A stretch of DNA of 9,406 nt, from assembly GCA_024681175.1 (NCBI GenBank), contig JAILBI010000228.1, forward strand, positions 1-9,406, given 5' to 3'. Shown here piece by piece: positions 1,598-8,955 of the stretch. Source of the DNA: Acholeplasmatales bacterium. GTDB lineage: Bacteria; Bacillota_I; Bacilli_A; Acholeplasmatales; Anaeroplasmataceae. The notes under the pieces were generated by a model that worked only from the letters and a program-made list of their open reading frames with translations, had not been told where the DNA came from and did no database searches. Positions within the stretch are counted from its first letter, which is position 1. Each line of letters starts with the position of its first letter. The position numbers and the translations under genes are program-made.

Positions 1598-1608
1598 ATA
1601 GTTGTCAA

Positions 1609-1629
1609 TTCCTAGTAAACCGATAGGAA
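1609..1629 (+). repeat. Dyad/hairpin element at the start of the leader, copy 1
   Basis: TTCCTA (1609-1614) and TAGGAA (1624-1629) form a perfect 6-bp stem around the loop GTAAACCGA, about 5 to 25 bases after the predicted transcription start. A close relative lies just upstream of the first cysteine synthase (4248-4268): over a 19-base core 16 bases are identical. The outermost pair is swapped from T-A here to A-T there, keeping the pairing. It could be an RNA hairpin (5' stabiliser or protein site) or, at the DNA level, an operator placed where a repressor would block the promoter. I do not recognise it as a known riboswitch or a CymR site. Confidence 0.5.
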
Positions 1630-1674
1630 AAGGCGAAATGACACAGATTACAACAAAGGAGGATTTAAATTATT

Positions 1675-1758
1675 ATGATGATGTGTATGTGTAATATGAT
1701 GTGTATCATGTATAAAGTAAAGAAAGTTCAAGAGTGTTGTATGCGAATGTGCAAATAA
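1675..1758 (+). CDS. Cys/Met-rich leader peptide (27 aa)
   Basis: A small ORF in the leader, starting with three consecutive ATG codons at 1675-1683 and ending with TAA at 1756-1758. A full Shine-Dalgarno sequence AAAGGAGG (1655-1662) lies 12 bases before the first ATG and 18 before the third, so the first is the likelier start. The peptide begins MMMCMCNMMCIM and ends ECCMRMCK: 9 Met and 6 Cys in 27 residues, with five Cys codons TGT and one TGC. The enrichment falls into two clusters, residues 1-12 and 21-26, separated by a lysine-rich stretch. The structural genes downstream are transporter and cysteine synthase genes, and an intrinsic terminator sits between. The simplest reading is a regulatory leader peptide whose translation reports the supply of charged tRNA-Cys and perhaps tRNA-Met. 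A Cys/Met-rich metal-binding peptide is the alternative, but nothing metal-related is nearby. Confidence 0.82.
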   Translation: MMMCMCNMMCIMYKVKKVQECCMRMCK

Positions 1759-1799
1759 TATTATTACTAAATTATTATTTTGTATTTTCAAGACAGCAT
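1734..1799 (+). promoter_or_regulatory. Predicted antiterminator hairpin
   Basis: A long imperfect hairpin can form from the end of the leader ORF to the ascending arm of the terminator. Pairs seen by eye: 1734-1740 with 1793-1799 (7 bp, two G-U), 1745-1747 with 1787-1789, 1749-1752 with 1782-1785 (two G-U), and 1753-1760 with 1773-1780 (8 A-T pairs), leaving a 12-base loop. It uses bases 1793-1797 that the terminator needs, so the two structures exclude each other. A ribosome held at the first Cys codons (4, 6, 10) would leave 1734 onward free and let it form. A ribosome reaching the stop at 1756 would cover its left strand and let the terminator form. As in trp leaders, a third pairing is available: 1735-1741 with 1649-1655 (7 bp, all Watson-Crick), which could stop the antiterminator forming when the ORF is not translated. 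Stabilities were not computed. Confidence 0.55.
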
Positions 1800-1815
1800 G
1801 ACGCTGTTTTTTTTT
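1790..1815 (+). terminator. Leader terminator (attenuator) before the operon
   Basis: AAGACAGC (1790-1797), a 5-base loop ATGAC and GCTGTTTT (1803-1810) form an 8-bp stem with one G-U pair, running straight into nine T residues (1807-1815). This is a good intrinsic terminator lying between a promoter and the first structural gene, 31 bases before its ATG and 31 bases after the leader-peptide stop. Its position implies that transcription of the operon is limited by premature termination. Confidence 0.9.
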
Positions 1816-1846
1816 ATAAATTATTTAAATTAAAGGAGAGAAGATT

Positions 1847-3073
1847 ATGGCAATCAATGCATGTGAATTTCATCCAATTAAAAAGGATGTTAATAATAAA
1901 GTAGATTATACAGATGAGGAAGCAGAAAAGCACGCAAGTTTAGTTCATGCAATTCCAAGACCAAAGGAAACAATTGATGAAATTGATGAAAGAGGCGCAT
2001 TTATAAGACAAGCAAATTATTTCATCACTCAATTTGGAGATAAGGAAGGCGAATTTAAAGCTGATAAGGATAGATATGTTATTTATTGGGCACACGGATG
2101 CCACTGGTCAAATAGACCTGTAATTGTAAGAGACATCTTAGGATTACAAGATGTAATAAAAGATGTTGCAGTAACACATACTGGTGAAACAAATAAATAT
2201 GGTCATGGCTTTGCTAACCAGGAAGGTCATAAGGATAAAATCAGTGGATTTTATTTCTTATCAGAAGCATATTTAAATGCTGATCCTAATTATAAAGGAA
2301 GAGCAACAACTCCTACATTAGTTGATTATCAAACTAAGAAGGCAGTTAATAATGATTATCATAGATTAACAAATTATATTGAGGTGCAATTTAGAAAATT
2401 CCAAAAGCCTGATGCACCAGATTTATATCCAGTTAAATATAGAAAAGAAATAGATGAATTTAATGATTGGCTATTCCCTACAATTAATAATGGTCATTAT
2501 AGAATGGCTTTCTGCCAATCACCTGAGGCTTATGAAGAAAGCTATGAGGATTTCTTCACAAATCTTGAAAAATTAGATCAAAGATTAGCAAATAATAGAT
2601 TCTTATTTGGTGATTATATTACAGATTCTGATGTAAGATTATATGTTACATTAGTAAGATGGGAAACATCTTATTATCATAATGTAGGACCTATTAAGAA
2701 AAGAATTACTGAATTTAAAAATATTTGGGGCTATGTATTAGATTTATTTAGCCTAGATGTATTTAAAAAATATACATTCTTTGAATTCAATACAAATGAG
2801 CCTAGCTTATTTAGAAGCTATGCAGCAAGAATTGCTTCAAAGATTGATTATTCTAAGATATGGGTATCAGATGGCTCAAGAAAGAAATTATCATCTGATC
2901 CAGATAATGTATATCTTCGTCATCCAAAGGGAGAAAGTGTAGAAGATTATCAATCTGAAATTTCATTTAGTCATTGGAATAGTAAAAATATTAAGGATAG
3001 AAATCCTTATAATAGAACAATTTCAACTGACCCAGCAATTAACCCATTAAAGGGATTGTTAAAAAATAATTAA
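1847..3073 (+). CDS. Divergent glutathionyl-hydroquinone-reductase-like protein 1 (GST/Ecm4/YqjG family)
   Basis: A 408-residue cytoplasmic protein, longer than the usual 320-330 of this family. The N-terminal thioredoxin-fold part (about 52-180) contains WAHGCHWSNR at 81-90. C85 aligns with the catalytic Cys, but the family motif C-P-W-A-H-R has become C-H-W-S-N-R. The β-strand motif TPTLVD (155-160) with its cis-Pro is kept. The Asn-Glu-Ser that follows it in the family, whose Glu-Ser holds the γ-glutamyl end of glutathione, is replaced by N-D-Y (169-171). The helical C-terminal domain shows DLYPV (192-196), FLFGDYITDSDVRLYVTLVR (252-271) and, near the end, HWNSK with DR, the last shared with the second paralog in this operon. 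Between these the C-terminus is expanded by some 40 residues. Family members reductively cleave thioether conjugates, but the actual substrate and thiol partner here are unknown. It is the first gene after the attenuator; AAAGGAG (1832-1838) supports the start. Confidence 0.85.
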   Translation: MAINACEFHPIKKDVNNKVDYTDEEAEKHASLVHAIPRPKETIDEIDERGAFIRQANYFITQFGDKEGEFKADKDRYVIYWAHGCHWSNRPVIVRDILGLQDVIKDVAVTHTGETNKYGHGFANQEGHKDKISGFYFLSEAYLNADPNYKGRATTPTLVDYQTKKAVNNDYHRLTNYIEVQFRKFQKPDAPDLYPVKYRKEIDEFNDWLFPTINNGHYRMAFCQSPEAYEESYEDFFTNLEKLDQRLANNRFLFGDYITDSDVRLYVTLVRWETSYYHNVGPIKKRITEFKNIWGYVLDLFSLDVFKKYTFFEFNTNEPSLFRSYAARIASKIDYSKIWVSDGSRKKLSSDPDNVYLRHPKGESVEDYQSEISFSHWNSKNIKDRNPYNRTISTDPAINPLKGLLKNN

Positions 3074-3091: not shown

Positions 3092-4207
3092 ATGAGAAAA
3101 TTATTAAAGGGATTATTAGGATTAACATTAGCTGCATCATCTACAGCAGCATTAGTATCTTGCAAGGACAAGAAAAAAGAATATAAGCATGGTGAATTAA
3201 AGGTTTCAATTCCAACAGGAAACATTCGTGTTACAATTGATATTTTAGCTAAGGAGCTTGGCTATTTTGATGAAGAAGAGGTTGGCTTTACAGCTGTAAA
3301 CCTTGGTGGTAATGATGCATTAACTGCAATTGAAGCAGAAAATGACACATTAGACCTATTAACTGCAGGATTCGTTGCAGATTTACAACATATTGGTCAA
3401 GGTAGAGATTTAACATTCATTGCAGGAACTGCAGTAGAAGGTGGTGCCTTAATTGCAAAGGCTGGTCAAGCAGCACAATATAAGGATAGCAATACAGTAA
3501 TTAATTTTGATAAATTTAGAACTTCTAAATTTGGTCTTGCAAGAAATGAAGCATCATGGATTGTTACAAGACAATATTTAAAGGATAATGATCCACAATT
3601 TTCTGATACAATTGATGCAGAAAATAGTGATTTAATCACATATTATGCAGATGCTCAAACTACAGCTCAAGCAGTAGGTAGAGGAGAAGTTAAAATTGGT
3701 TATTTACCATTAGAATATGCATTATTATATCAAGATGGTTATGGTATTGAAATAATTGCAGCAGCAGGTGAATTACAACCAGAATATGTATGCTGCCGTG
3801 AAGTAACAGCTAAGAATACATATGAAGAAAAATATGAAGCATTCGTAGCTTATGAAAGAGCAAGAATTAGAGCTTGGGAATATTATAAGAAAGAAGAAAA
3901 TCAAGAAAGAGTAGTAAATATTGTTTCTCAATATTCTGGTAAAGAAAAGGATTATGTAAGAACATATTTATATGGTGGCGTTACTAAATTTTCTACAGAT
4001 CCAAACTCAAAAGGTATTAAAGCATATGTTAATGCAGCATTAAATGCAGGTGTATTAAAGCAAGATGTTGATGTATCAGAAAATATTTCAACAGGTGCAT
4101 ATAAAGAAGCATTAGATTCTTTAATTGCAGATTATCCAGCAAATACATTCTATCAAGAAACTTTAGCATTATATAACCAATATAATACTGAAAATAATAA
4201 TAAGTAA
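3092..4207 (+). CDS. ABC transporter substrate-binding lipoprotein, NitT/TauT/SsuA type
   Basis: A 371-residue exported protein. The N-terminus has two positive charges, a hydrophobic run (residues 6-22) and the lipobox L-V-S-C with C24 as the lipidated cysteine, then a Lys-rich linker. The mature part resembles the NMT1/SsuA-like fold: a β-strand (LKVSIPTG, 36-43), then ILAKELGYFDEE (51-62), which matches the family pattern in which the ligand pocket follows a predicted 'KELGYF' helix, and a GGNDALTAI loop (72-80). The partner ATPase and permease are three and four genes on and are of the same transporter class, so they form one importer. The class takes nitrate, sulfonates, taurine, thiamine precursors and similar small ligands. 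Sulfur compounds are favoured here only by the cysteine-synthase neighbours. An adjacent Cys pair (C234-C235) in the mature protein is unusual for a surface protein. AAGGAG (3078-3083) lies 8 bases before the start; the gap to the preceding gene is 18 bases. Confidence 0.87.
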   Translation: MRKLLKGLLGLTLAASSTAALVSCKDKKKEYKHGELKVSIPTGNIRVTIDILAKELGYFDEEEVGFTAVNLGGNDALTAIEAENDTLDLLTAGFVADLQHIGQGRDLTFIAGTAVEGGALIAKAGQAAQYKDSNTVINFDKFRTSKFGLARNEASWIVTRQYLKDNDPQFSDTIDAENSDLITYYADAQTTAQAVGRGEVKIGYLPLEYALLYQDGYGIEIIAAAGELQPEYVCCREVTAKNTYEEKYEAFVAYERARIRAWEYYKKEENQERVVNIVSQYSGKEKDYVRTYLYGGVTKFSTDPNSKGIKAYVNAALNAGVLKQDVDVSENISTGAYKEALDSLIADYPANTFYQETLALYNQYNTENNNK

Positions 4208-4209
4208 TA

Positions 4210-4235
4210 TTTTATCCGAGGCAACTCGGATAAAA
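4210..4235 (+). promoter_or_regulatory. Intercistronic GCAA-loop hairpin after the binding-protein gene
   Basis: Two bases after the binding-protein stop there is a perfect 11-bp stem, TTTTATCCGAG (4210-4220) with CTCGGATAAAA (4225-4235), capped by a GCAA tetraloop of the GNRA class. On the plus strand it is followed by A residues, not T, so it should not terminate the operon. A stable stem directly behind a binding-protein gene is a common way to protect that part of the mRNA from 3' exonucleases and keep the binding protein in excess over its transporter. That role is an inference from position. Confidence 0.7.
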
Positions 4236-4247
4236 AAATAAGGTGTT

Positions 4248-4268
4248 ATCCTAGTAAAACACTAGGAT
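4248..4268 (+). repeat. Dyad/hairpin element before cysteine synthase 1, copy 2
   Basis: ATCCTAGT (4248-4255) and ACTAGGAT (4261-4268) form a perfect 8-base inverted repeat separated by AAAAC. As RNA the two innermost A-T bases would more likely open into a 7-base loop on a 7-bp stem. It ends 2 bases before the ribosome binding site AAGGAGG (4271-4277) of the next gene. It matches the element at 1609-1629 at 16 of 19 core positions. Its left arm is also nearly identical to the left arm of the preceding hairpin (TTATCC-T-AG versus TTATCC-G-AG), so the two neighbouring hairpins can exchange partners. Confidence 0.55.
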
Positions 4269-4282
4269 TTAAGGAGGAAATT

Positions 4283-5215
4283 ATGAAGATATATAAGGAC
4301 TTAACATTATTAGTAGGAAAGACTCCATTATTAGAGCTTACTAAGCTTGAAAAGGTATATAAGCTTGATGCAAAAATCTTAGCAAAGCTTGAATATTTTA
4401 ATCCAGCAGGATCAGTTAAAGATAGAATAGCTTTAAAAATGATTAAGGATGCTGAAGATAAAAAATTATTAACTGAAGGCTCAACAATTATTGAGCCAAC
4501 ATCAGGTAATACTGGTATTGGTCTTGCAGCACTAGCAACAAGCAAAGGATATAATGTAATAATTACAATGCCTGATTCAATGTCAAAAGAAAGAATTACC
4601 CTCCTTAAGGCTTATGGAGCAAAAGTAATATTGACAGAAGGAGCCCTTGGAATGAAAGGTGCAATAGCAAAAGCAAGAGAGCTTGCTGAACAAACACCTC
4701 ATTCATATATTCCTGGTCAGTTTACAAATGAATCAAATCCAAAAGCCCATTACGAAACAACTGCACCAGAGATTTGGAATGATACAGATGGTAAGGTTGA
4801 TATTTTTGTAGCAGGTGTTGGTACAGGTGGAACAATTTCAGGAGTAGGTAAATATTTAAAAGAAAAGAATCCTGATGTAAAAATTATTGCAGTTGAACCA
4901 TCTGATTCACCATTACTTTCAAAAGGTACAACTGGTAAGCATAAGCTTCAAGGTATTGGTGCAGGATTCATCCCATATACACTTGATCAAAGTGTAATTG
5001 ATGAGGTTATTGCAATAGATGAAAATGATGCTTATATTGCAGCAAGAGAGGCTGCAAAGCTAGATGGTGTATTAGCAGGTATTTCATCAGGTGCAGCAAT
5101 ACATGCAGCATATTTAGTTGCAAAAAGAAAAGAAAATAGAGGTAAGAATATTGTAGTATTACTTCCAGATAGTGGAGAGAAATATTTAAGTACTTCCTTA
5201 TATGAAAAGGAGTAA
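4283..5215 (+). CDS. cysK: Cysteine synthase 1 (O-acetylserine sulfhydrylase), canonical type
   Basis: A 310-residue PLP enzyme of fold type II, the normal length for CysK. It should join sulfide to O-acetylserine to give cysteine in the cytoplasm. Landmarks: NPAGSVKDR with the PLP lysine K46; EPTSGNTG at 71-78 (the loop binding the substrate carboxylate); GQF at 145-147 with the substrate-contacting Gln and Phe; the phosphate-binding GTGGT at 180-184; GISSGAA at 266-272; and PDSGEKYLST at 295-304. One small change is TTAPEIW (159-165) where TTGPEIW is usual. All motifs expected of a working O-acetylserine sulfhydrylase are present. AAGGAGG (4271-4277) supports the start. It is separated from the binding-protein gene by a 75-base structured gap, and only 4 bases separate it from the ATPase gene. 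No serine acetyltransferase (cysE) is in the window, so the O-acetylserine source must lie elsewhere. Confidence 0.94.
   Translation: MKIYKDLTLLVGKTPLLELTKLEKVYKLDAKILAKLEYFNPAGSVKDRIALKMIKDAEDKKLLTEGSTIIEPTSGNTGIGLAALATSKGYNVIITMPDSMSKERITLLKAYGAKVILTEGALGMKGAIAKARELAEQTPHSYIPGQFTNESNPKAHYETTAPEIWNDTDGKVDIFVAGVGTGGTISGVGKYLKEKNPDVKIIAVEPSDSPLLSKGTTGKHKLQGIGAGFIPYTLDQSVIDEVIAIDENDAYIAAREAAKLDGVLAGISSGAAIHAAYLVAKRKENRGKNIVVLLPDSGEKYLSTSLYEKE
5205..5212 (+). promoter_or_regulatory. Ribosome binding site that sets the ATPase start
   Basis: AAAAGGAG lies inside the last codons of cysteine synthase 1, with 7 bases to the ATG at 5220. An in-frame ATG at 5202 precedes this site and would place the ribosome binding site inside the coding sequence, so 5220 is the better start. 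Confidence 0.8.
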
Positions 5216-5219
5216 TTAT

Positions 5220-6023
5220 ATGGAAAATATAAATTCAAAAATATCAATCAAAAATTTATATTTTGATTATATTGATAAAAAATCACGCTTTGGTGCTTTA
5301 GAGGATGTTAATTTAGATATTAAAGAAGGTGAATTTGTCTGCATCCTAGGTTCATCAGGATGCGGTAAATCAACATTATTAAGTATCTTAAATGGTCTTA
5401 ATAAAGCTAAAAGTGGTGAAATATTTATTGATGGAAAAAAGGTAGAAGGTCCTGGTATTGATAGAGCAATGGTATTCCAGCAGTATTCATTATTTCCTTG
5501 GTTAACAGTAAAAGGAAATGTGAAATTTGGAATTGACCAAAGTGGTAAAAAATATTCAAGAAAAGAAAAGGATCTTAAAGCAGAAAATTATGTAAGACAG
5601 GTTGGTCTTTATGGAGCAATATCAAAATATCCTTCTGAATTATCAGGAGGTATGCAGCAAAGAGTTGCAATTGCTCGTGCTTTAGCAGTAGAAAGTGATA
5701 TTTTATTACTTGATGAGCCTTTTTCAGCAATTGATCCTAGATTAAGATTAGAGCTTCAGGAGCTTGTTTCAAAATTATCTAAGGATAATCATAAAACAGT
5801 TGTGTTTGTAACACATGATGTTGATGAAGCAATCTTACTTGCAGATAGAATTGTTGTAATGGAGCCTAAAAAGATTAAAGCAATCTTAAATGTAGAATTT
5901 CCACATCCAAGATTAAGAGATGAGCTTGTTGGCAAAGAAGAATATGAAAACCTTCATAGAAAATTAATTTCACTTTTCTATGATGATGTTGAAAAAGAAA
6001 TTGATGGTGGTGTTTCATTATGA
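5220..6023 (+). CDS. ABC transporter ATPase, NitT/TauT/SsuB type
   Basis: A 267-residue cytoplasmic ATP-binding subunit that powers the importer. Walker A is GSSGCGKST at 44-52, the Q-loop is in VFQQYSLFPWLTV (85-97), the signature is LSGGMQQ at 141-147, Walker B is ILLLDEP at 161-167 with the catalytic E166, and the switch His is H199 in FVTHD. The QQYSLFPWLTV stretch and the overall length are typical of the nitrate/taurine/sulfonate subfamily (SsuB, TauB, NrtD). Translation is probably coupled to the preceding cysteine synthase gene (4-base gap) and to the permease (4-base ATGA overlap). Its TGA stop inside that overlap is the evidence that TGA is not read as Trp in this organism. Confidence 0.95.
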   Translation: MENINSKISIKNLYFDYIDKKSRFGALEDVNLDIKEGEFVCILGSSGCGKSTLLSILNGLNKAKSGEIFIDGKKVEGPGIDRAMVFQQYSLFPWLTVKGNVKFGIDQSGKKYSRKEKDLKAENYVRQVGLYGAISKYPSELSGGMQQRVAIARALAVESDILLLDEPFSAIDPRLRLELQELVSKLSKDNHKTVVFVTHDVDEAILLADRIVVMEPKKIKAILNVEFPHPRLRDELVGKEEYENLHRKLISLFYDDVEKEIDGGVSL

Positions 6024-7012
6024 TGCAAGAAGAGAAAAAACAAAATAAAGTATTATCAGCTATCATTAGTTTTTTAAAAAAGACATTCACATTAGAAAAA
6101 TCACATTTAATTGGTATAGGTATAGTAATTACATTATTTGCATTAGATATAATCTTAGCTTATACATTAGGTTATCAAACAAAGCATAAATATACATATG
6201 AAGCAACACCATATGTTGTTGCTTTATCAGTAATATTAATTTTGTATTTTATCAAATTGTTCGCATCTAAAAAGAAAAGTGCTACAGATTTAACAATTGT
6301 AATATTCACATTCTTTGGAATATGGGATGTAGCATTTAAGCTAGGTTGGATTACTAATGATATATTAGTTCCATCACCTGAAGGATTATTTAATGTATTT
6401 TATACAAAGCATACAGAAATATTAACTGATATATGGTTATCATTAAAATTATTATTCTGGGGCTTTTTATTAGGTATTGTACTAGGTACAGTACTTGGTC
6501 TTGTTGCAGGCTGGTTTGCAAGAGTAAGAGAGGTAGTAATACCTATTTCTAATGCAATTACATTATTACCACCATTATTATTCTCAGCTTATTTAATCAT
6601 GACACTTGATACATTTAAGCAAGCAGCTATTGCAGTAATATTCTTTGCAGTATTCTGGCCTACATTACAAGGTACAGTTGCAAGAGTATCAAGAATTGAT
6701 AAAAAGATTATTGAAGCCGCAAAGGTAATGGGTGTTGGAAATGTTGGAATGCTATTTAAAGTAATATTTCCATACTGCTTACCAGAGATCATTAGAAGTG
6801 TTTCAAAAAGCTTAAGAGGCGCATTTATGTGTCTCGCAGGAGCTGAAATGCTTGGTATTAATGGTGGTGTTGGATTCTTTATTGAAAAATATAAATCATT
6901 TGCTGATTTTAGAGTAGTATTAGCTGGTATTGTAACAATTGGTGTAGTTACTACAGTAATTGATTTAATTGTTACAAAGGTTGAAAAAGCTTTAATTAAA
7001 TGGAACTACTAA
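6020..7012 (+). CDS. ABC transporter permease, NitT/TauT/SsuC type, with N-terminal membrane extension
   Basis: A 330-residue integral membrane protein forming the channel of the importer, presumably as a homodimer with two ATPase subunits. The core (about residues 110-330) looks like SsuC/TauC: VPSPEGLF (117-124), several membrane segments between 140 and 215, the cytoplasmic EAA loop EAAKVMGVG at 232-240 that docks the ATPase, and a final hydrophobic helix (about 300-318). Compared with the usual 250-275 residues it has extra N-terminal sequence with hydrophobic segments at about 30-50, 64-82 and 90-106. The start overlaps the ATPase stop as ATGA (6020-6023); a second ATG follows directly at 6023, so the first Met is not certain. 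The specificity cannot be read from the permease. Confidence 0.94.
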   Translation: MMQEEKKQNKVLSAIISFLKKTFTLEKSHLIGIGIVITLFALDIILAYTLGYQTKHKYTYEATPYVVALSVILILYFIKLFASKKKSATDLTIVIFTFFGIWDVAFKLGWITNDILVPSPEGLFNVFYTKHTEILTDIWLSLKLLFWGFLLGIVLGTVLGLVAGWFARVREVVIPISNAITLLPPLLFSAYLIMTLDTFKQAAIAVIFFAVFWPTLQGTVARVSRIDKKIIEAAKVMGVGNVGMLFKVIFPYCLPEIIRSVSKSLRGAFMCLAGAEMLGINGGVGFFIEKYKSFADFRVVLAGIVTIGVVTTVIDLIVTKVEKALIKWNY

Positions 7013-7021
7013 GGAGTTATT

Positions 7022-7954
7022 ATGGGAAAGATATATGATAATATTTTAGAAACAATTGGACATACTCCAATTGTAAGATTACATAGAATAGAAAAAGAAT
7101 ATAATTTGAAAGCAAAATTATTTGCAAAAGTTGATTTTTTTAATCCAGGTGGATCTATTAAAGATAGAATGGCACTTGGAATGGTTGAGGCAGCTGAAAA
7201 AGAAGGATTATTAAAGGAAGGTGGCATGATTATTGAAGGATCAAGTGGAAACACAGGTATTGGTCTTGCCTTAGTTGGTGCTGCAAAAGGATATAAGGTC
7301 AAAATTTGTATGCCAGAAAATATGAGCCATGAGCGTGTTGTATTATTAAAAGCTTATGGTGCTGATGTTTATTTAACTCCAAGCAACCAATCAATGGCTG
7401 GTGGTGCTAAAAAGACTGATGAATTATTGCTACAATATCCTGATGCATTTACACCAAGACAAGGTAAAAATCCTAATAATCCAGGCTCACATTATAAAAC
7501 TACAGGTCCTGAAATTTGGGATGATATGGATGGTAATGTAGACATTTTAGTTGCTACATCAGGTACAGGTGGAACAATATCTGGTACAGGTAGATATTTA
7601 AGAGAACAAAAGCCTGATATTAAAATTGTTGCAGTAGAACCACTTGGCTCACCACTTTTAAATGGTGGTGTACATGGACCACATAAAATACAAGGTATTG
7701 GTGGTGGTGCAACACCTGAAACAACAGATCAATCATTATTTGATGAAGTAATTGATGTATCAGATGATGATGCTTACTTTTTTGCAAGATTATCACCTAA
7801 AAAGGAAGGTATCTTAATTGGTATATCTGCTGGAGCTGCATTATATGCTGCAGTAGAGGTTGCAAAAAGAGAAGAAAATAAGGACAAAAACATTGTAGTT
7901 ATTTTCCCTGATGGTGGCGATCATTATTTATCAAGTGATTTATATGAGGATTAA
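7022..7954 (+). CDS. Cysteine synthase-like PLP enzyme 2 (divergent CysK/CBS family)
   Basis: A 310-residue fold type II PLP enzyme, the same length as the first cysteine synthase of the operon, but clearly different in the active site. The PLP lysine (K47 in NPGGSIKDR) and the phosphate loop GTGGT (181-185) are intact. Three changes stand out: the substrate loop reads EGSSGNTG (72-79) instead of EPTSGNTG; the Gln-Phe contact reads R-Q-G (146-148) instead of G-Q-F; and GISSGAA and PDSGE have become GISAGAA (267-273) and PDGGD (296-300). The family includes O-acetylserine sulfhydrylase, O-phosphoserine-using enzymes and β-synthases that use homocysteine or other nucleophiles. I infer a different donor or nucleophile from cysteine synthase 1, but cannot say which. 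The ribosome binding site AAGGAG (7011-7016) overlaps the permease stop, and the next gene starts 2 bases after its own stop. Confidence 0.87.
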   Translation: MGKIYDNILETIGHTPIVRLHRIEKEYNLKAKLFAKVDFFNPGGSIKDRMALGMVEAAEKEGLLKEGGMIIEGSSGNTGIGLALVGAAKGYKVKICMPENMSHERVVLLKAYGADVYLTPSNQSMAGGAKKTDELLLQYPDAFTPRQGKNPNNPGSHYKTTGPEIWDDMDGNVDILVATSGTGGTISGTGRYLREQKPDIKIVAVEPLGSPLLNGGVHGPHKIQGIGGGATPETTDQSLFDEVIDVSDDDAYFFARLSPKKEGILIGISAGAALYAAVEVAKREENKDKNIVVIFPDGGDHYLSSDLYED

Positions 7955-7956
7955 TT

Positions 7957-8955
7957 ATGAGTGAAATTTCTTGTAGCTTAGCAAATAGAAAAATAAATAA
8001 TAAAAATTATGTTGAATCATTAAAAACAGAACATGGTGAAGGTGGTAAATTTGTAAGACAAAAAAATAGATTTACTACACCTTTTGGAGATAAAGAAGGA
8101 GAGCTTCCAGTTGAGGCTAATAGATATAGATTAATATGGGCTCCTGTTTGTCCTTGGGCACATAGATCAATCATTGTAAGAAGTCTTTTAGGCTTAGAGG
8201 ATGTAATAAGTGTTGGAACACTTGATCCTGTAAGACCTGATACACCTACATCTGATTGGGCATTTACACTTGATAAGGATGGAGTTGATCCAGTTTTAGG
8301 TGTTCACCTATTAAGTGAATTATATTTAAAAACTGACCCAGAATATAATGGAAGACCTACAGTACCATGTGTAGTAGATCTTAAAACAAAAAAGGTAGTA
8401 AATAATGATTATTTTAATTTAACTAGATATTGGGAAACTAAATGGACTAAATTTCATAAAAAAGGTGCACCTGATTTATATCCAGTAGAATTAAGAGAAG
8501 AAATAGATAAATTTAATGATGATCTATTTGATAAAGTAAATAATGGTGTATATAAAGCAGGCTTTGCAAGAAGCCAAGAGGCTTATGAGGATGCGGTAAT
8601 GAATGTATTTAAAAAATTTGATGAGCTTGAAGAAAGATTATCACATTCAAGATATTTATTTGGAGATAAAATAACCGAATCTGATATAAGATTATATGTT
8701 ACATTAGTAAGATTTGATATTGCATATCATAATGCATTTAAGGTTAATTTAAAAACCTTAAAGGAATATAAAAATTTATGGGGCTATGCAAGAGATTTGT
8801 ACCAAACTAAAGGATTTGGAGACACAACAAATTTTGATACAATAAAGAAGCATTATCACCTTTGCTGTGTATCAAATCCATATAAAATATTACCTTTAGG
8901 TCCAAATTTAGATGAATGGAATTCTAAACATAATAGAGATAGAGAATATAAATAA
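7957..8955 (+). CDS. Glutathionyl-hydroquinone-reductase-like protein 2 (GST/Ecm4/YqjG family)
   Basis: A 332-residue protein of normal length for the YqjG/Ecm4 family, which reduces glutathionyl-hydroquinones and related thioether conjugates through a reactive Cys. CPWAHR is intact at 65-70 (C65 catalytic), preceded by NRYRLIWAPV as in the family. VPCVVD (136-141) carries the cis-Pro. The glutathione-binding Asn-Glu-Ser is again replaced, by N-D-Y at 150-152, the same change as in the first paralog. The helical domain has APDLYPVELR, SRYLFGDKITESDIRLYVTLVRFD, and RDLYQ followed by IKKHYHLC and LGP near the C-terminus, all good family landmarks including the Tyr-containing segments that bind the substrate ring in known members. 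It ends in WNSK with DR, shared with paralog 1. TGAGGA (7945-7950) within the end of the preceding gene is a modest ribosome binding site, and translation is probably coupled. A thiol other than glutathione is plausible for this lineage. Confidence 0.92.
   Translation: MSEISCSLANRKINNKNYVESLKTEHGEGGKFVRQKNRFTTPFGDKEGELPVEANRYRLIWAPVCPWAHRSIIVRSLLGLEDVISVGTLDPVRPDTPTSDWAFTLDKDGVDPVLGVHLLSELYLKTDPEYNGRPTVPCVVDLKTKKVVNNDYFNLTRYWETKWTKFHKKGAPDLYPVELREEIDKFNDDLFDKVNNGVYKAGFARSQEAYEDAVMNVFKKFDELEERLSHSRYLFGDKITESDIRLYVTLVRFDIAYHNAFKVNLKTLKEYKNLWGYARDLYQTKGFGDTTNFDTIKKHYHLCCVSNPYKILPLGPNLDEWNSKHNRDREYK

Follow-up and report, generated by a model that had tools for sequence, protein, structure and literature searches.

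The window, by which we denote the whole AT-rich stretch of 9406 bases analysed here, harbors a Cys/Met-rich leader ORF followed by an intrinsic terminator at the head of a sulfur operon, and this arrangement is quite probably a ribosome-mediated transcription attenuator reading the supply of sulfur amino acids. The ORF, the terminator, the recurrence of the arrangement, the enrichment of Cys together with Met and a predicted switching in many relatives are computed results, while we infer translation, stalling, switching of the copy in the window, the response to Met and the repressor discussed below. As a class, the leader-peptide attenuators are well supported; for the window's copy the reading is plausible but structurally unproven.

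According to the proposed mechanism, RNA polymerase would start near 1600-1605 and transcribe the leader with its ORF. With ample Cys-tRNA, and probably Met-tRNA as well, the ribosome would clear codons 2-12 and reach the stop codon, upon which the terminator would fold and the operon would be off. If Cys- or Met-tRNA is scarce, the ribosome would stall in the Cys/Met cluster, the downstream leader RNA would form base pairs with the terminator's 5′ arm, and transcription would continue into the operon.

Leader, terminator and operon of the window

The leader ORF (1675-1758; all features are on the + strand unless stated otherwise) comprises 27 codons and encodes the peptide MMMCMCNMMCIMYKVKKVQECCMRMCK, with six Cys (codons 4, 6, 10, 21, 22 and 26) and nine Met (codons 1, 2, 3, 5, 8, 9, 12, 23 and 25). 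This composition is extreme, since the seven genes of the operon hold just 16 Cys and 29 Met among 2335 codons. A first cluster of putative control codons spans codons 2-12 (1678-1710), the same position as the cluster of the relatives, and a second one, CCMRMC, spans codons 21-26 (1735-1752) and contains the C-x-R-M-C motif common to L028, L107 and L033. The Shine-Dalgarno sequence AAAGGAGG (1655-1662) lies 12 nt ahead of the ATG, a spacing which is a little long. The ORF with its Cys and Met content and Shine-Dalgarno sequence, as described in a first-pass annotation of this DNA, is thus borne out by the sequence of 1655-1758. None of eight leader peptides tried reaches a Pfam or NCBIfam cut-off.

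Behind the ORF follows the intrinsic terminator AAGACAGC-ATGAC-GCTGTTTT plus T run (1790-1815), consisting of an 8-bp stem at 1790-1810 and a T run to 1815. Three terminator-like sites are found in the 601-bp region scanned versus 0.1 in shuffles, the remaining two being both strands of one hairpin at 1488-1515. The segment 1740-1820 folds with z = -2.57, so that scan and fold both uphold the terminator claimed earlier; the transcript 1600-1846 as a whole folds no better than shuffles (z = -0.91). Sulfur amino acid genes of Bacillota are described as targets of T-box, S-box or CymR control. At the gathering threshold no Rfam family matches in the window, hence neither a T-box nor an S-box is found; at E ≤ 5 the segment 1550-1860 yields just rseX and S15-leader matches, which are far under the cut-offs and were taken as chance. 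Among 18 leader loci no Rfam family was matched either.

The gene order downstream of the leader is GST/lipoprotein/cysK/ABC/cysK/GST. The first gene, preceded by its Shine-Dalgarno sequence at 1832-1840, encodes a protein with a GST C-terminal domain (1847-3073; PF13410), and is followed by a lipoprotein (3092-4207) without a Pfam or NCBIfam family match, presumed from its position and a lipobox identified by eye to be the substrate-binding protein of an ABC transporter. Cysteine synthase A (4283-5215; TIGR01139, 437 bits, cut-off 351), the ABC transporter ATPase (5220-6023; by profile match nitrate/taurine/SaoA-like, under the NCBIfam cut-offs shown), the permease (6020-7012; PF00528), a second cysteine synthase (7022-7954; TIGR01139, 386 bits, cut-off 351) and a second GST-domain protein (7957-8955; PF13410) complete the operon. 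The profile matches thereby confirm the long operon with two cysteine synthase genes and a transporter. An attenuator of this kind would be expected to govern genes making or importing the amino acid that it reads, and the two cysK genes are of this sort.

The first gene product has 1469 relatives, one of which, a metagenomic protein, shares 98% identity with it; among the best 120 of these relatives, most of the others with a length of about 400 residues are 67-77% identical, and the sources named are Acholeplasmatales, Lachnospiraceae, Oscillospiraceae and others. The upstream neighbour of the operon (173-1480) is a protein with HD domains (HD_5, HD and HDIG matches). Directly after the lipoprotein gene a strong 11-bp hairpin with a GCAA loop is located at 4210-4235, with no T run on the + strand; it may set the ratio of the lipoprotein to the downstream proteins.

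Recurrence and joint enrichment of Cys and Met

Small ORFs were collected from 278 intergenic gaps of 100-900 nt ahead of genes in the loci L001-L079 plus the window, requiring a preceding Shine-Dalgarno sequence, 8-60 codons and at least three of the tested residue within 8 codons. Cys-cluster ORFs occur 22 times versus a mean of 0.6 in five dinucleotide shuffles (0, 2, 0, 0, 1) and Met-cluster ORFs 20 times versus 0.2 (0, 0, 1, 0, 0). Twelve other amino acids show much smaller shifts, the largest being that of Asn (11 vs 2.2), followed by Tyr (3 vs 0.8), Phe (4 vs 1.8), Lys (10 vs 4.6) and Arg (17 vs 9.8), with the remaining ones around chance or under. Among 98 small ORFs 22 are Cys-rich, 20 Met-rich and 13 both, and the share of Met after the first residue amounts to 14.7% in the Cys-rich ORFs against 4.3% in the rest. 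All 21 distinct leaders from the Cys-only filter carry Met past residue 1, with a mean distance from Met to the nearest Cys of 3.18 residues compared to 6.09 (sd 0.35) for random placement; over 44 leaders, a set including 13 picked by a Met-containing search pattern, the values are 2.87 and 5.90. The joint bias towards Cys and Met is statistically real. Among 160 genomes of the order the codon string MMCMC has four matches (reversed control 2), namely the already known leaders L110 and L111, a new leader (L113) and, as judged by eye, one site inside a membrane-protein gene (L112); MMCCMC has five matches, all of them previously seen leaders (reversed control 0).

These shuffle controls, together with the similar leaders found in relatives, render it extremely improbable that the window merely contains a chance ORF ahead of an ordinary terminator, even though the structure tests of the window, that is the fold of the whole transcript and the stall model described below, are negative as such a reading would have it.

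The GST is present in 12 of 55 genomes of the family of the nearest genome. In the stretches examined, at least one Cys/Met-rich leader occurs in eight of these twelve (G002, G003, G005, G006, G013, G020, G022, G025). The leader of G007 is short (MFLRKLFGNSFRCHRMCN) and lacks a terminator, G004 shows the Shine-Dalgarno-led ORF MMSNKLNLI without Cys, no Cys/Met leader was found in the stretches of G027, and in G001 the contig stops in the upstream gene, so that a leader is not judgeable there. The gene order GST-SBP-cysK-ATPase-permease-cysK-GST is intact in L001, L002 and L004; L003 is devoid of the first cysK, and in many other relatives the order is rearranged. A clear Cys/Met leader with terminator is located at five of seven readable operon heads, i.e. 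the window, L002, L003, L089 and L090, the latter two being counted as operon heads by their GNAT-GST order only. In these four relatives the leader and terminator are placed ahead of a GNAT gene which precedes the GST gene. The two other heads have a short leader with two Cys and no terminator (L033) and a short Shine-Dalgarno-led ORF without Cys (L004). In L004 another frame across the terminator (8874-8930) contains a Cys pair (MRRIKVDCCLLFILNYEL) and no Shine-Dalgarno sequence. The expectation that relatives keep the Cys/Met codons and let the middle of the peptide drift is confirmed, usually with a terminator behind; that such a leader always stands upstream of this operon does not hold, as seen from L033 and L004.

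Two shapes of leader can be distinguished. In type A, which includes the window, the Cys/Met cluster is N-terminal; examples are MKMMCMCSMKKILNTGRCFRMCSFE in L028 (5970-6047), where it precedes a GST paralogue, and MKMMFMCNMKKIMNTWRCFRMCSFE in L107, both similar to the window's peptide, as well as leaders starting with MCNMMCMK (L002), MCNMMYMK (L089, L090) and MMRMCMN (L003). In type A, Met varies no more than Cys does. The leaders of L089 and L090 are identical and differ from that of L002 in 13 codons, 4 of them synonymous; the synonymous/nonsynonymous comparison comprises three pairs, too few for use. In type B the first clustered Cys is found at residue 16-18, with cores such as NMMMCCMC, KMMCSCMC, NMCFGCCMC and NMMCMCCC (L015, L028, L088, L091, L094, L109). 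A type B leader also precedes a PepV-type M20 dipeptidase in L015 (2065-2163) and L028 (7439-7537), profile-scanned in L015, which suggests that the breakdown of peptides is controlled likewise. The leader of L113 (MTRNNVRISCCMNSMMCMCSDMCLIMQKNLPNAK), from a genome outside the 55-genome family search for the GST, is followed by a terminator and by an SDF-family symporter, which may carry cystine as TcyP does; among solved structures, carriers of aspartate and glutamate come nearest to it. At 1630-1690, past the terminator and ahead of the symporter gene, lies another very short ORF, which contains CC (MSSDCCMYKETTFNK).

A sister leader family (MCCCRM...SRA) exists in another bacterial family. 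The pattern MCCC(R/S)M has matches in 17 of 397 genomes of the family of the L060 genome (reversed pattern 1), and a second set adds two of three genomes, one of them shared with the first set, giving 18 loci combined. By eye 14 of these are leader-like, among them L151 without a recognised Shine-Dalgarno sequence, and in 11 of the 14 the terminator scores -12 kcal/mol or lower; L136, L137, L138 and L148 look like chance. As the search pattern itself fixes the MCCCRM codons, conservation there is circular and the surroundings alone are informative. Downstream genes were profile-scanned for ten loci: metY (O-acetylhomoserine sulfhydrylase) is present in L147, L149 and L151, MetQ/NlpA-type lipoproteins, under the NCBIfam cut-off, in L140 and L144, an amino acid-type permease in L141 and a family-3 binding protein in L146. 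In L143 (1737-3017), L145 (3-1319) and L150 (1-1311) the Cys leader is followed by a lipoprotein which unites a family-3 domain and then a MetQ/NlpA domain in one chain. Leaders of the sister family also stand ahead of M20 peptidases (L045, L056, L060), and that of L076 ahead of a DUF2292 protein, a misfit with no obvious sulfur gene. In several members, as judged by eye, the S-R-A codons (TCCCGGGC) can base-pair with the terminator's 5′ arm (GCCCGGGAG), and the duplex test shows this pairing for L045, L056, L060 and L076. We take the SRA codons to be the antiterminator, a role in which their conservation would find its explanation.

A functional Cys/Met-rich small protein, for instance a metal binder, in place of a control peptide appears very unlikely. 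Cys and Met are typical metal ligands, and a missing family match is no exclusion of such a protein; against it, length (18 to 45 residues) and non-cluster sequence vary greatly among the leaders, while the place and mostly the terminator are kept.

Sensing of Met by the attenuator is suggested by codon content. A variant in which the attenuator senses cysteine only, with Met present for another reason (repeated starts, RNA pairing or slow decoding), is a possibility to be taken seriously, if not the one we would expect to be true. Some leaders have downstream genes for amino acid binding proteins of family 3, a group to which cystine binders belong. Met clusters are nevertheless over-represented like those of Cys, close to Cys and often far from the start codon, Met is kept better than Cys in L003, L089 and L090, and metY and MetQ types are among the downstream genes. 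As far as their available text goes, leaders reading Cys are the published precedent (PMC1262725, PMC8632094).

Predicted switching and possible control at the promoter

In the stall model all RNA up to a point 13 nt from the first base of the A-site codon was masked, and it was computed how probable the terminator stem is; for the null, the RNA between cluster and terminator was shuffled. For 26 leaders the mean terminator probability is 0.49 with the ribosome on Cys codons versus 0.89 at the stop codon (null 0.83), and for 10 further leaders 0.23 versus 0.93 (null 0.88). These ten comprise nine sister-family loci (L140-L146, L149, L151) and L113; L134 and L135 repeat L045 and L060 of the 26, and L139, L147 and L150 were omitted for a poor terminator call. 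A p ≤ 0.05 is reached by 16 of the 26, 8 of the 10 and neither of L089 and L090, thus by 24 of 38 leaders in total, with the window among the 14 with p > 0.05. Strong antiterminators are predicted for the L015 4944 and L094 336 leaders. In L089 and L090 the terminator probability is 0.99 at every codon, i.e. no switch is predicted, and the shift is small in some of the significant leaders, with values under stall of 0.95 (L071), 0.90 (L094 3872) and 0.82 (L091). A kinetic measure, which asks whether the arm is sequestered before its 3′ partner has been transcribed, reaches significance in just 4 of 10. Fisher values are 7.6e-9 for 14 family members with the window, 3.9e-14 for the 26 and 2.1e-9 for the 10; they ignore relatedness and are overstated, since leaders with almost the same sequence (L015/L028; the MCCCRM set) do not count as independent. 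The direct duplex test of the antiterminator pairing is weak (Fisher p = 0.02, 31 rows including a wrong-frame one, L003). From its 32 rows, L033 (spurious stem) and L066 (no terminator) are not among the 26, and L045 8738, L054, L070 (a duplicate of L056) and L076 were also left out.

For the window itself a stall at codons 4 and 6 leaves the terminator probability at 0.93, compared with 0.91 for a ribosome at the stop codon (p = 0.95); at codon 10 it is 0.88-0.93 for footprints of 9-17 nt, and just some of the A-site positions from codon 12 to codon 16 give values of 0.54-0.62. The release of the terminator by a stall at control codons 4-10, as assumed previously, is consequently not supported by the model, which predicts no fall at codons 4, 6 and 10. 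By eye a weak candidate antiterminator arm, GUGUUGU, is located at 1734-1740, opposite ACAGCAU at 1793-1799. The core pairing of -3.9 kcal/mol is no better than chance (p = 0.68), and with the ribosome at codon 10 this alternative falls short of the terminator fold by 4.6 kcal/mol; the antiterminator of the window's leader is unproven. Either switching of this leader would require kinetics or factors outside the model, or this copy would be weak. The notion of a peptide attenuator reading Cys and Met together hence stands with respect to recurrence, enrichment and switching in many relatives; it lacks the predicted switch in the window, and its Met part is deduced from the codons.

A candidate promoter, TTGCAT-17-TAATAT with an extended -10 TG (TGATAATAT), is recognised by eye at 1569-1597. 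The consensus scan of the window reports no + strand site ahead of the presumed transcription start, and the script's score of 8/12 belongs to another place than the promoters of the relatives; the promoter announced at the outset is therefore visible by eye but weaker than stated. A promoter scoring 10-12/12 is located 32-60 nt ahead of the ORF in 14 of 17 upstream regions examined, the exceptions being the window, L002 and L028 7439.

Twelve nt past the end of the by-eye -10 of the window starts a 21-bp dyad, TTCCTAGTAAACCGATAGGAA (1609-1629, no strand assigned), a candidate operator of an Rrf2/CymR-type repressor or else a 5′ RNA hairpin. Of the 17 upstream regions, 14 show a CCTA/TCTAG element, recognised by eye, that begins 7-14 nt past the -10; the window is among them, its place in this count depending on the by-eye -10; L113 has a similar element at the -35, while L002 and L028 7439 have none. 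The usual linear order at leader loci is promoter, CCTA element, Shine-Dalgarno sequence, leader, terminator and gene. A second dyad of the window, ATCCTAGT-AAAAC-ACTAGGAT (4248-4268), is situated between the lipoprotein gene and cysK directly before the Shine-Dalgarno sequence, with no obvious promoter, and elements resembling it are found upstream of the GST in L001, L002, L003, L089 and L090. Because the element also occurs in such intergenic positions before a Shine-Dalgarno sequence, it may have an RNA role. A 5′ riboswitch at 1600-1650 was considered and dropped, since the fold is weak (z -0.88, -1.78), Rfam gives no match and the shared element resembles a DNA dyad.

In G001-G004 genes for Rrf2 proteins share a contig with the operon at a distance of no more than about 6 kb, and in G144 such a gene and the leader are about 9 kb apart. 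An Rrf2 gene over the cut-off is found in 12 of 13 genomes of relatives, G027 having none over the cut-off. As labelled by eye, the Rrf2 gene adjoins a cysK-like gene in L126 and lies between metY-like and cysK-like genes in L120; in L130/L003 it is immediately upstream of the leader and GNAT gene, and the solved structures closest to the L130 protein include those of IscR and CymR. The dyad next to the promoter and the Rrf2/CymR-like genes near the operon of four relatives suggest a second layer, in which initiation is probably controlled by a CymR/IscR-like Rrf2 repressor acting at the dyad. The peptide attenuator had been set against the usual control of such genes by T-box, S-box or CymR. 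Neither of the two RNA elements is matched by Rfam in the window; as the dyad follows the -10 and Rrf2 genes are near the operon in G001-G004, CymR-type control is probably added and not replaced.

The same observations could be explained by a repressor at the promoter dyad being the actual control, with the leader ORF of the window as a relic or minor modulator. This we consider unlikely. The dyad, the recurring CCTA/TCTAG element, the Rrf2 genes near the operon and beside cysK-like genes, the IscR and CymR matches and the missing predicted switch of the window all fit it. However, most relatives with the element also keep Cys/Met clusters and terminators, a relic would presumably hardly retain 15 sulfur codons out of 27, and Rrf2 and GST genes are on different contigs, in fragmented assemblies, in seven genomes (G005, G006, G007, G013, G020, G022, G025). 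Moreover, two layers are compatible with each other, as in Listeria, where according to the available text the ilv leader Rli60 works alongside the global repressor CodY (PMC5864092).

Comparison with known leaders and sulfur regulators

Taken beyond the window, the data would describe a Bacillota class of leader peptides with a mixed Cys/Met control zone, reporting both amino acids via one stall; they would stand before various sulfur operons (GST/cysK/ABC, metY, M20 peptidases, and binding proteins of the amino acid and MetQ types), act on top of a CymR-like repressor and occur in at least two distant animal-gut lineages; we advance this full description tentatively, giving it slightly under an even chance. 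If true, translation itself would be an added sensor for sulfur genes of Bacillota, maybe combining two amino acids. Such leaders are easily overlooked with their 18-45 codons and no match in Pfam/NCBIfam (8 peptides) or Rfam (18 loci), and a simple codon pattern suffices to find them in genomes. A literature search, with preprints and most subscription papers outside its reach, found no mixed Cys and Met leader in Bacillota. The principle of attenuation is known, and Cys leaders have been described in Actinobacteria and in Rhodobacterales.

In the available text of the sources, the actinobacterial cys leaders are short Cys-rich ORFs upstream of cys genes without clear terminators (PMC1262725), and the mycobacterial polycysteine sORFs are leaderless and Cys-rich (Canestrari et al. 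2020 as cited in PMC9094748). They share with the window a short Cys-rich ORF before cys genes and a proposed or reported response to cysteine. Whereas they are leaderless or show no conserved terminator hairpin in that text, the leader of the window is led by a Shine-Dalgarno sequence, is followed by a terminator, has Met mixed in and belongs to Bacillota. The combination typical for the mycobacterial ORFs, i.e. leaderless, with a Cys run and no intrinsic terminator, is thus not found here.

Closer in architecture is uORFC-8-2 upstream of cysS in Rhodobacterales, for which the accessible part of the report describes Cys codons in the leader ORF plus a terminator and proposes attenuation (PMC8632094). 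It differs in having two tandem Cys codons, in its alphaproteobacterial origin and in preceding a tRNA synthetase gene, and that part notes no Met cluster. Within Bacillota, Rli60 (PMC5864092) and the his leaders of bacilli (PMC2965389) are leader-peptide attenuators like the one proposed here, but as described in the text at hand they read branched-chain amino acids or histidine.

The accessible portions of two reports describe CymR as an Rrf2 repressor of cysK, sulfonate, mccAB and tcyP genes and as controlling cysK and transporters in clostridia (PMC3828012, PMC2940859). The CymR/CysK regulon may form the second layer here, and differs from the attenuator by acting on DNA at initiation with no leader peptide. 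T-box(Cys) and S-box elements, as far as that text of PMC2940859 covers them, resemble the proposed attenuator in that premature termination controls sulfur genes of Bacillota; they are RNA elements without a translated leader.
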